NCBI GenBank assembly: GCA_030039095.1
Contig: JASHQP010000268.1
Location: forward strand, 1 to 7,303
Direction of reading: 5' to 3'
Length of the DNA stretch: 7,303 bases
Source: Streptosporangiaceae bacterium
GTDB lineage: Bacteria > Actinomycetota > Actinomycetes > Streptosporangiales > Streptosporangiaceae
Positions 1,681 through 2,580 of this stretch are shown here, one piece after another. A model generated the notes under the pieces. That model had not been told where the DNA came from. It saw only the letters and a list, made by a program, of their open reading frames with translations, and made no database searches. Each line of letters opens with the position of its first letter. Position 1 is the first letter of the stretch. A program made the position numbers and the translations under genes.

Positions 1681-1721
1681 AGAAAAACCAGTTGCCCCGC
1701 CGCGGAACGGCTACATAGGCT
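1681..1721 (+). promoter_or_regulatory. Probable autoregulated whiB7 promoter (AT-rich element, -35, -10)
   Basis: An A-rich run (AGAAAAA, 1681-1687) stands out in very GC-rich DNA. Four bases after it comes a -35 candidate TTGCCC (1692-1697), then an 18-base spacer and a -10 candidate TAGGCT (1716-1721), which fits the actinobacterial TANNNT pattern. Known WhiB7 target promoters, including whiB7's own, carry an AT-rich patch just upstream of the -35, which the AT-hook of WhiB7 contacts while WhiB7 binds the main sigma factor. This arrangement fits positive autoregulation. The start of transcription would be near 1728. The call is inferred from pattern and context. Confidence 0.6.
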
Positions 1722-1759
1722 TCTCCCATGTCCGCGGCTCTGCTGACGACGCCACATGG

Positions 1760-1766
1760 AAGGAGG
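1760..1766 (+). promoter_or_regulatory. Strong ribosome binding site of the whiB7 upstream ORF
   Basis: AAGGAGG is a near-perfect anti-16S match, eight bases before the ATG at 1775. It decides the start: a GTG at 1766 in the same frame lies inside the site and cannot be the start. It is the best Shine-Dalgarno sequence in the window, which argues that this leader ORF is heavily translated. Confidence 0.75.
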
Positions 1767-1774
1767 TGCCCGGG

Positions 1775-2071
1775 ATGCTGACGATGGATTCAGGTTCCGA
1801 GGCTGCCGCCGTCGCGCGCGCGCCGTTCAGCATGGGCACCTGCCTGCCGCTGGCCGCCGTCCCGACCGCTCAGCCGCGCATGGGCGCAGTCGCATTTGCG
1901 CGCCCGCGCGCGTGGGCTCCCGGCTCGGAGCAGCGCCACCCGGCTGCTGACCTGAGCGCAGTTCTCGGACGGCCCAACCAGAGCAAGCAGAACTACCCGT
2001 ACCCGACCCGCATCGCCGCCGGCGGTGGTGCAATGGGTCCGCATCCGGCGAGGGATCCGGAACCGGTCTAG
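1775..2071 (+). CDS. whiB7 leader peptide (upstream ORF, 98 aa) of a translation-sensing attenuator
   Basis: This 98-codon ORF lies wholly within the 5' leader of whiB7. Its ATG is eight bases after AAGGAGG, and codon use is GC3-rich as in a real gene. The peptide is Ala/Pro-rich, matches no domain I recognise, and has no signal peptide or membrane segment. Near the end it has QSKQNYPYPTR (69-79), where Asn73-Tyr-Pro-Tyr-Pro77 covers bases 1991-2005, right at the foot of a leader hairpin. The UAG stop (2069-2071) sits in the loop of another hairpin, 23 bases before the terminator. Upstream ORFs that couple ribosome stalling to whiB7/wblC read-through are established in mycobacteria and Streptomyces. 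The product probably has no function beyond being translated, though a free small protein cannot be excluded. Confidence 0.7.
   Translation: MLTMDSGSEAAAVARAPFSMGTCLPLAAVPTAQPRMGAVAFARPRAWAPGSEQRHPAADLSAVLGRPNQSKQNYPYPTRIAAGGGAMGPHPARDPEPV
2005..2039 (+). promoter_or_regulatory. whiB7 leader hairpin A (candidate anti-antiterminator)
   Basis: Bases 2005-2009 (GACCC) pair with 2035-2039 (GGGTC). Bases 2010-2018 pair with 2023-2031, including two G-U pairs, closing a CCGG loop; AAT (2032-2034) is bulged. This makes a stem of about 14 pairs. It would hold GGGTC, the first part of the arm needed for antitermination. A ribosome paused over codons 73-79 of the leader ORF would melt it. Pairing was worked out by eye; no energies were computed. 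Confidence 0.5.
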
Positions 2072-2106
2072 AAAGACCGGCCAGAACCCTCAGAGGCCGC
2101 GGACCC
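2035..2106 (+). promoter_or_regulatory. Candidate antiterminator pairing in the whiB7 leader
   Basis: GGGTCCGC (2035-2042) is a perfect 8-base complement of GCGGACCC (2099-2106), which is part of the 5' side of the terminator hairpin. If this long-range helix forms, the terminator at 2094-2125 cannot. A smaller stem, CCGGTCT (2063-2069) with AGACCGG (2074-2080), sits inside and is compatible. The pairing is mutually exclusive with both hairpin A and the terminator. It is a hypothesis from complementarity only. Confidence 0.45.
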
Positions 2107-2126
2107 GAAATCGGGCCCGCGGCCTT
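2094..2126 (+). terminator. Intrinsic terminator in the whiB7 leader (attenuator)
   Basis: AGGCCGCGG (2094-2102) pairs perfectly with CCGCGGCCT (2117-2125). After one A/C mismatch the stem continues as CCCG/CGGG around an AAAT loop. The hairpin is followed by TCGTC; a true U-tract is missing, as is common in actinobacteria, but TTTT occurs at 2145-2148. It lies between the leader ORF stop (2071) and the whiB7 ribosome site (2183), where an attenuator should be. A small anti-helix, CGGCC (2078-2082) with GGCCG (2095-2099), could also compete with it. Confidence 0.7.
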
Positions 2127-2199
2127 CGTCATGCGAGGCCACCGTTTTGTCAGACGTGTGAGAGACCGTAAGACGAGTGGATGAGAGGGGATGGCACCG

Positions 2200-2580
2200 A
2201 TGCATCGGCCCGGCACCACCGCCGTTCTGGATGACCAGGCGGGGTTCGAGGCGGTATCCGTGCAGGTAGCGGCGATCACGAGCGCACAGGGGCAGGCACA
2301 GCGGGGCGCCCCGATCCCGGTGACGATGGCCGGAGTTCCCAGCGGCCGGATCCTGCCGTGCACGGATGACCCGGACCTGTTCTTCGCCGAGTCTCCGCAG
2401 GACGTGGAGTGCGCAAAGGACCTGTGCAGGAGCTGCCCGGCGCGTATGGCGTGCCTCGCCGGGGCGCTCGAGCGCCGGGAGCCCTGGGGCGTCTGGGGCG
2501 GCGAGCTGTTCCTTCGCGGCGAGGTCGTGCCGCGTAAGCGGCCGCGCGGACGGCCCAGGAAGGACGAAGTAGCGGCCTGA
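2200..2580 (+). CDS. whiB7: WhiB7 (WblC), iron-sulfur transcriptional activator of antibiotic resistance genes
   Basis: WhiB7 binds the primary sigma factor and activates promoters of intrinsic resistance genes in actinomycetes. Four family cysteines for the [4Fe-4S] cluster are present (C-X21-C-X2-C-X5-C: LPC, DLC, RSC and MAC). A fifth cysteine lies in DVECAK. The sigma-contacting turn EPWGVWGGE follows, and the C-terminus ends in the AT-hook RKRPRGRPRKD, which is diagnostic of WhiB7 among Wbl proteins. An ATG at 2191 is only two bases from the GAGG core of GAGAGGGG (2183-2190), so the ATG at 2200 (126 aa) is preferred. The protein has about 45 more N-terminal residues than the conserved core needs; an internal ATG at 2326 would give a size nearer the 92-aa M. 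tuberculosis protein but has no clear ribosome site. Expression is probably controlled by autoactivation plus the leader attenuator. Confidence 0.95.
   Translation: MHRPGTTAVLDDQAGFEAVSVQVAAITSAQGQAQRGAPIPVTMAGVPSGRILPCTDDPDLFFAESPQDVECAKDLCRSCPARMACLAGALERREPWGVWGGELFLRGEVVPRKRPRGRPRKDEVAA

Follow-up and report, generated by a model that had tools for sequence, protein, structure and literature searches.

The DNA analysed here (7,303 nt of a soil bacterium; hereafter the window) raises the question of how a long leader might decide whether the whiB7 gene behind it is transcribed. In actinobacteria, intrinsic resistance to drugs that target the ribosome is under the control of whiB7. The primary papers on the whiB7/wblC attenuator of Streptomyces and Mycobacterium, which uses an upstream ORF (uORF), are reportedly those of Lee, Lee and Roe (2022) and Burian and Thompson (2018). 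uORF-mediated attenuation of whiB7/wblC is described or mentioned in the available text of PMC11550727, PMC10727445, PMC13393426, PMC9618640, PMC4128351, PMC7157823 and PMC13236596; a terminator and an antiterminator are named in that of PMC11550727, PMC10727445, PMC13393426 and PMC9618640, and in the part of PMC10727445 at hand the antiterminator is built from overlapping uORF and terminator sequences. Among open-licence papers searched by title, no paper on the whiB7 leader in Streptosporangiales was found. An initial annotation of the window had read the leader as a three-state attenuator sensing translation. From sequence and folding models, we consider it quite probable that the region is a whiB7 attenuator, in which translation of the uORF would decide whether transcription stops before whiB7.

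The gene downstream of the leader was identified as whiB7/wblC by both Pfam and a solved-structure match. The product of 2191..2580 (forward strand, as are all leader features below) matched PF02467 (E 7.8e-14), and its best solved-structure match was WhiB7 (E 2.5e-29, residues 54-128 covered). The start is more likely ATG 2200 (126 aa) than the listed ATG 2191, because ATG 2191 abuts GAGAGGGG and the relative L091 has ATC there. The top whiB7 loci by E-value (best of 80) were L001 and L002, each 64% identical over the best segment; both are metagenome-assembled, and L002 is titled Streptosporangiales. Also inside the window are the C-terminal part of a UvrD-like helicase (3-794) and, ahead of the leader, an acyl-CoA thioesterase II (791-1657). 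A 74-aa ORF without a Pfam match (2590-2814) lies just 3' of whiB7.

Relatives of the leader were collected in steps. The uORF peptide as a single query matched one of five genomes behind the nearest loci, and the uORF alignment matched 15 of 297 genomes in the family of G002, one of these matches (L096, in G050) being partial, with stops inside. An alignment of 16 leaders including the window (A2; L096 was left out, and L081 and L085 duplicate L002) was the source of a model, R1. The nearest leader was that of G041, and in the order of this genome R1 had matches in 281 of 345 genomes; class-wide, it had them in 41 of 296, and R1 is therefore centred on the order. From the places listed for the 281 genomes, we took 120 among the better-scoring ones. 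Together with L018 and the window they made up 122 loci, all of which precede a WhiB domain gene; L018 and L120 have the same peptide end and probably represent a single record, leaving about 121 distinct loci. Removal of L122, L138 and L171, in which the patterns GGCCGCG[GA] or CGCGGCC were absent, left 119 leaders; had L122 stayed, the terminator would have gained a compensated pair and the antiterminator helix a mismatch. Tests based on the antiterminator arm used 115 leaders (4 lacked the arm pattern) or 104 non-redundant ones, and thinning the 104 by an 88% similarity cut gave 52 diverse leaders (A3). At the Rfam gathering score, neither the window nor 8 related loci gave a match. With E up to 1, a phage thermoregulator appeared in the leader at 1812-1864, which we treated as chance (18.4 bits, where the threshold is 50).

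The leader begins with a putative WblC/WhiB7-type promoter (1683..1721), recognized by the pattern given in the available part of PMC7157823 (GAAAWY 3 nt upstream of the -35, and a -10 of TANNNT). It consists of an AT-rich box AAAAAC (1683-1688), which is one base (the first) off GAAAWY, followed after 3 nt by the -35 TTGCCC (1692-1697), an 18-nt spacer and the -10 TAGGCT (1716-1721); transcription is expected to start near 1728, as judged from these elements. A relaxed form ([AG]AAAWY, gap 2-4, TTG) occurred in 19 of 32 leaders, the window included and one record (L018/L120) probably counted twice, against 0.02 expected from base shuffles. The promoter would thus be of the autoregulatory type, in line with the WblC promoters in the part of PMC7157823 at hand.

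The uORF (1775..2071) has 98 codons and ends with TAG at 2069-2071. Its Shine-Dalgarno sequence AAGGAGGT (1760..1767), which we take to be identical to the full consensus, lies 7 nt ahead of ATG 1775, confirming the leader ORF with an ideal ribosome site of the initial annotation. A protein database contained 59 uORF homologues (84-102 aa, 55-96% identity), and the leader peptide gave no Pfam or NCBIfam match at E 0.001 and no plasmid match. In 121 of the 122 loci, including the window, a frame open for 40 codons or more (counted from stop to stop) ended in the matched region; the exception was L119, with a frame of 32 codons.

Past the uORF stop, where the initial annotation had put it, a terminator hairpin pairs 2093-2107 with 2112-2126 (2093..2126; 14 pairs and one A.C mismatch, 2103.2116). 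The stem has a free energy of -29.5 kcal/mol (z -6.2), and none of 200 shuffles was equally stable. The GGCC of the terminator is followed by UUCGUCAUGC, with 4 U in 10 against a mean of 6.6 in the 119 leaders, and a terminator scan of the window did not flag the main hairpin. That is, the strong terminator claimed earlier is strong in its stem, but its U-run is weak and the scan is silent. In the 52 diverse leaders, 11 terminator pairs were paired in 100%, which partly reflects selection of these leaders for GGCCGCG and CGCGGCC, and 21 showed U-A changed to C-G. The terminator core GGCCGCGG also occurs upstream of whiB7 in Streptomyces, Pseudonocardia, Nocardioides and other loci, which suggests common descent; none was found in the seven loci titled Mycobacterium in our terminator/antiterminator screen of 80 whiB7 loci. 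The 3' GGCCT of the terminator (window 2121-2140) is also complementary to an AGGCC at 2136-2140, which is followed by ACCGTTTTGT, and the scan calls this pairing terminator-like. AGGCC occurred within 22 nt of the terminator stem in 19 of 119 leaders, and GGCCT/AGGCC could possibly form a second terminator or an alternative fold.

The poor U-run after the stem would suit a different control, in which the leader hides the whiB7 ribosome site and transcription is not stopped. The stretch 2184-2190 was also partly paired, with a mean unpaired probability of 0.42-0.52 in three contexts. However, this probability changed little with or without the switch region in the fold (a comparison of contexts, not of one state with the other), and the studied helices end near 2126, more than 50 nt ahead of the whiB7 ribosome site. 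The available text of PMC4128351 also reports that in mycobacteria transcription is attenuated at the uORF 3' end. We therefore regard control of whiB7 translation by the leader as highly improbable.

For control at the level of transcription, the leader needs an alternative to the terminator, and the end of the uORF contains a candidate. The 5' arm GGGTCCGC (2035..2042), which codes for Gly88-Pro89 and neighbours, is a perfect complement of the switch segment GCGGACCC (2099..2106), exactly as claimed in the initial annotation. The switch segment is common to the antiterminator, where it pairs with 2035-2042, and the terminator, where it pairs with 2113-2120. The 8-nt match alone is weak evidence, as one also arises in 365 of 5000 sequences made by shuffling the final 87 nt of the uORF; it is credible because it is conserved and favoured by codon choice. 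The antiterminator extends beyond these 8 pairs and spans 2035-2106, comprising the 8-pair helix, a middle helix and a stem-loop (2050..2091) with the stop codon at its apex. The stem-loop, missed by the initial annotation as part of this larger structure, pairs 2050-2054 with 2087-2091, 2056-2060 with 2081-2085 (interrupted) and 2063-2069 with 2074-2080. Folded alone, 2030-2110 gave -45.5 kcal/mol, and none of 200 shuffles was as stable.

Conservation of these helices was assessed in the two alignments; because R1, with which the loci were collected, includes the antiterminator helix in its score, the following pairing percentages are somewhat favoured by selection. In A2, 100% of cells were paired in the antiterminator helix and 93.8% in the stop hairpin; in A3, 98.1% were paired in the antiterminator helix, 75.2% in the middle helix and 93.8% in the apical stem of the stop hairpin. 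Five measures for the antiterminator and stop stem together exceeded all 500 shuffles (52 leaders). Selection of the loci does not explain the shuffle and recoding controls. Four of the 8 antiterminator pairs were invariant over the 52 leaders. Examination of the helix 2035-2042/2099-2106 in relatives did reveal, at 98.1% pairing, a compensatory change: L087, which shares its place with L106, has C-G changed to U-A, a thin sign because it falls on one branch. On the tree of the 52 leaders, both bases of a pair changed on 6 branches in the stop hairpin and on 2 in the terminator (as many in 0 of 300 permutations each), on 1 in the antiterminator helix (16 of 300) and on 3 in the middle helix in one fixed register (93 of 300). 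The antiterminator helix is nearly invariant, which is the main reason for its scant independent covariation. When 110 non-redundant leaders were scanned for covariation on a tree, no pair had E <0.05; the best pairs were in the terminator (0.09) and the stop hairpin (0.24), and many top pairs represent deep clade splits.

Two alignment-free tests provided stronger evidence than these covariation counts. In the arm swap, leaders paired better with their own antiterminator arms (-37.0 kcal/mol) than with swapped arms (-33.9 kcal/mol), with no gain between very similar leaders. The antiterminator duplex averaged -37.3 kcal/mol as encoded and -28.0 kcal/mol after synonymous recoding of the last 13 uORF codons; in 87 of 104 leaders no more than 5% of the recoded versions paired as well, and in the window none of 200 did. 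The Gly codon in the 5' arm was GGT in 113 of 115 leaders, whereas upstream parts of the same uORFs, taken as background, use GGT 114 times and GGC 524 times; the arm pattern accepts only T or C at this base, and 4 of the 119 leaders lack the pattern. The RNA, beyond the peptide alone, therefore appears to be under selection. A crude terminator/antiterminator screen of 80 whiB7 loci had placed 15 above 95% of shuffles, with the order members L002 (0.105) and L004 (0.175) below that mark; this screen scored the terminator arm only and shuffled triplets, and the synonymous test is better targeted. Structure and conservation thus point to attenuation coupled to the uORF, through pairing of its end with the 5' arm of the terminator, and the antiterminator proposed earlier stands, in extended form.

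Conservation of the uORF could also be read as that of an arrest peptide, in which the segment KQNYPYxTRIAA (codons 71-82, window 1985-2020) would sense a drug or metabolite and stall the ribosome, and the RNA switch would follow. Residues 71-76 and 78-82 are indeed near-invariant, being invariant or conserved in at least 90% of the window and its 59 close homologues. However, NYPY was present in just 2 of 122 peptide ends (the window and L111), while the antiterminator was retained nonetheless. The more widely conserved peptide end, approximately GPxP..R..P[VA], lies close to the stop and is encoded by the paired RNA arms; therefore, a constraint on the RNA can explain its conservation, and a separate function is not needed. 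An arrest peptide is, in our judgement, an unlikely basis for the switch. The segment KQNYPYxTRIAA itself may be a lineage-specific stall signal or may reflect a constraint from hairpin A.

Hairpin A (2005..2039) was confirmed at the place where it had been proposed, with 2005-2018 facing 2023-2039; its basal stem is 2005-2009/2035-2039 and its inner stem 2010-2018/2023-2031. Terminator, antiterminator and hairpin A had been described as all mutually exclusive. This is true of the five basal pairs of hairpin A against the antiterminator helix and of the antiterminator helix against the terminator; the remaining parts are compatible, as the inner stem of hairpin A can coexist with the antiterminator and both states contain the stop-codon stem-loop (2050-2091). 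Alone, hairpin A gave -22.6 kcal/mol, and 5 of 200 shuffles were equally stable. It was paired in 89.7% of cells in the 16 near leaders (A2) and 66.2% in the 52 diverse leaders (A3), against 64.2% in shuffles, 11 of 500 of which matched it; on other measures in A3 it was equalled by 36 to 188 of 500 shuffles. No branch carried a double change in the basal stem and 7 did in the inner stem (108 of 300 permutations). Under synonymous recoding, hairpin A weakened with a mean z of -1.4 over 104 leaders, 36 of which reached the 5% level; for the window, 12 of the 100 synonymous versions equalled it in stability. Its proposed role as a protector is thus backed in the near clade, but clear covariation is missing across the order.

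We folded the transcript with ribosomes masked, ending it before the terminator 3' arm and assuming a 30-nt footprint (2052-2081 at the stop). In the window, the probability (P) of the antiterminator was 1.00 without a ribosome and 0.98-1.00 with the P-site from 1973 to codon 82; it fell to 0.75 at codon 83 and to 0.05 or less at codons 84-97, and was 0.10 at codon 98. The base of hairpin A formed behind the ribosome at codons 94-98. The 119 leaders followed the same trend as far as some 12 nt short of the stop: mean P was 0.92 without a ribosome (below 0.5 in 8 leaders), 0.95-0.96 with the P-site 54-78 nt from the stop and 0.01-0.03 at 18-36 nt. At 6 and 3 nt before the stop, mean P was 0.47 and 0.69, respectively; therefore, a ribosome at the stop only would leave most leaders on in this model. 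In a shorter context of the window (1985-2110) with the ribosome at the stop, the antiterminator was slightly ahead (-34.1 versus -31.5), which contrasts with the P of 0.10. The initial annotation had the ribosome at the stop cover 2035-2042 and so favour the terminator. The first part is not supported, as the footprint 2052-2081 misses 2035-2042 and disrupts the stop-codon stem-loop instead; the outcome agrees with the window P of 0.10 and with the kinetic model at codon 98 for two rate constants (below), but not with the shorter context, which keeps the antiterminator.

At equilibrium, the window without a ribosome preferred the antiterminator to hairpin A by 6 kcal/mol before the terminator 3' arm (-60.5 versus -54.4), and the terminator to the antiterminator by 7 once the terminator was complete (-78.2 versus -71.3; mean P of the terminator over leaders 0.97). 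As the finished terminator wins at equilibrium, antitermination must be kinetic, that is, set by the order of folding. In a coarse kinetic model of co-transcriptional folding without a ribosome, the terminator was the end state in 95 of 119 leaders and the antiterminator was kept in 18, with a barrier of 8.1 kcal/mol in the window. In this model of the window with k0 of 2e5 and 2e6, the terminator formed without a ribosome, P-sites at codons 75, 79 and 83 led to the antiterminator, and those at 95 and 98 led to the terminator. With k0 of 2e7, the window was antiterminated without a ribosome; late positions were outside this run. Over 36 leaders, the kinetic model gave mixed results (727 of 864 tasks run).

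These results bear on a three-state switch of the trp type, in which hairpin A would form first without a ribosome and the terminator would follow, a stall at about codons 73-83 would give the antiterminator, and a ribosome at the stop would again give the terminator. The window shows all three states at k0 of 2e5 and 2e6, the terminator without a ribosome is shared by the window and the 95 leaders above, and both the pairing of hairpin A in the 16 near leaders and its weakening on recoding agree with such a switch. Conversely, equilibrium folding before the 3' arm and the run at k0 of 2e7 both give the antiterminator without a ribosome, hairpin A lacks clear covariation at the order level and is matched by synonymous versions in the window, and a regulatory codon run is absent, with no same-residue run longer than two (Ala81-Ala82) in uORF codons 68-83. 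The earlier claim that hairpin A and the terminator prevail without a ribosome thus agrees with the kinetic model at two of three rate constants and disagrees with equilibrium and k0 of 2e7; that of an antiterminator with the ribosome near codons 73-79 is reproduced in the model at codons 75 and 79, again at two of the three constants. We regard the three-state switch as a possible reading that we hold with some doubt.

For the attenuator as a whole, we propose the following course. GGGTCCGC, at the end of the uORF mRNA, resembles the terminator 3' arm, so that it could take the 5' arm GCGGACCC and form the antiterminator before the 3' arm emerges. The stem-loop holding the uORF stop codon would bring both antiterminator arms together. 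Ribosomes that keep pace with RNA polymerase, and stand in the last codons as the switch segment emerges, would open this scaffold and allow the terminator to form (off). Behind ribosomes slowed or stalled upstream, the scaffold would stay intact, so the antiterminator would form and whiB7 would be transcribed (on); WhiB7 may then amplify the response from its own promoter. The switch would read the presence of a ribosome at the uORF end at the right time, and hairpin A probably tunes it by holding 2035-2039. In its broadest form, which we put forward tentatively, the leader would belong to an order-wide RNA family, absent from Rfam, whose signal would be how far the ribosome is from RNA polymerase and not a stall at chosen codons. 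Its default without a ribosome near the uORF end would be antiterminated, it would be off only with a ribosome within roughly the final 15 codons as the switch segment emerges, and the peptide end GPxP..R..PV would be a by-product of pairing. If true, distance sensing would account for whiB7 induction by chemically unrelated drugs and by amino-acid starvation. Antibiotic-caused stalling within the whiB7 uORF is still to be tested according to the available text of PMC12121999; the named arms, the stop codon in a stem-loop and the calculated ribosome window make the mechanism easier to test.

As judged by sequence and structure, the leader is a conserved whiB7 attenuator of the published kind, absent from Rfam; the leader set is material for an Rfam family and leaves the accepted mechanism unchanged. 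In the trp attenuator, segments pair in the order 1:2, 2:3 and 3:4, and the order is the same here. As in the trp/ilv type, including actinobacterial ilvB1NC in the available part of PMC13236596, the uORF ribosome would set the choice between terminator and antiterminator; unlike that type, the uORF here has 98 codons and no run of codons for a single amino acid, and its protector hairpin is not clearly supported across relatives. The ARE-ABCF attenuators of Streptomyces likewise combine a uORF with a terminator and an antiterminator in the part of PMC12421871 at hand, where ribosome-targeting drugs induce them; their uORFs are very short (3 and 9 residues), with ribosomes stalling at the start codon, unlike here. 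With the whiB7/wblC attenuator of Streptomyces and Mycobacterium, as far as the sources cited at the outset cover it, the present system shares a long leader, a uORF with a Shine-Dalgarno sequence, a putative terminator of the Rho-independent type (strong in its stem, poor in its U-run in the window) with whiB7 3' of it, and an antiterminator made from overlapping uORF and terminator sequence, here deduced from structure and conservation. It differs in the arm, which is GGGTCCGC in the window and commonly GGGTCCG(C/T) in the order, and in having the stop codon in a stem-loop. In Streptomyces, the uORF side paired with the terminator arm above 95% of shuffles in 11 of 17 loci, mostly via a different, CCGCGGCC-like segment. 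In many order-wide leaders (e.g., L136, in A3), the uORF ends with CCTGGAGGC, which pairs with GCCTCCAGG or similar; the GGAGG in such ends is Shine-Dalgarno-like and might slow ribosomes near the stop.
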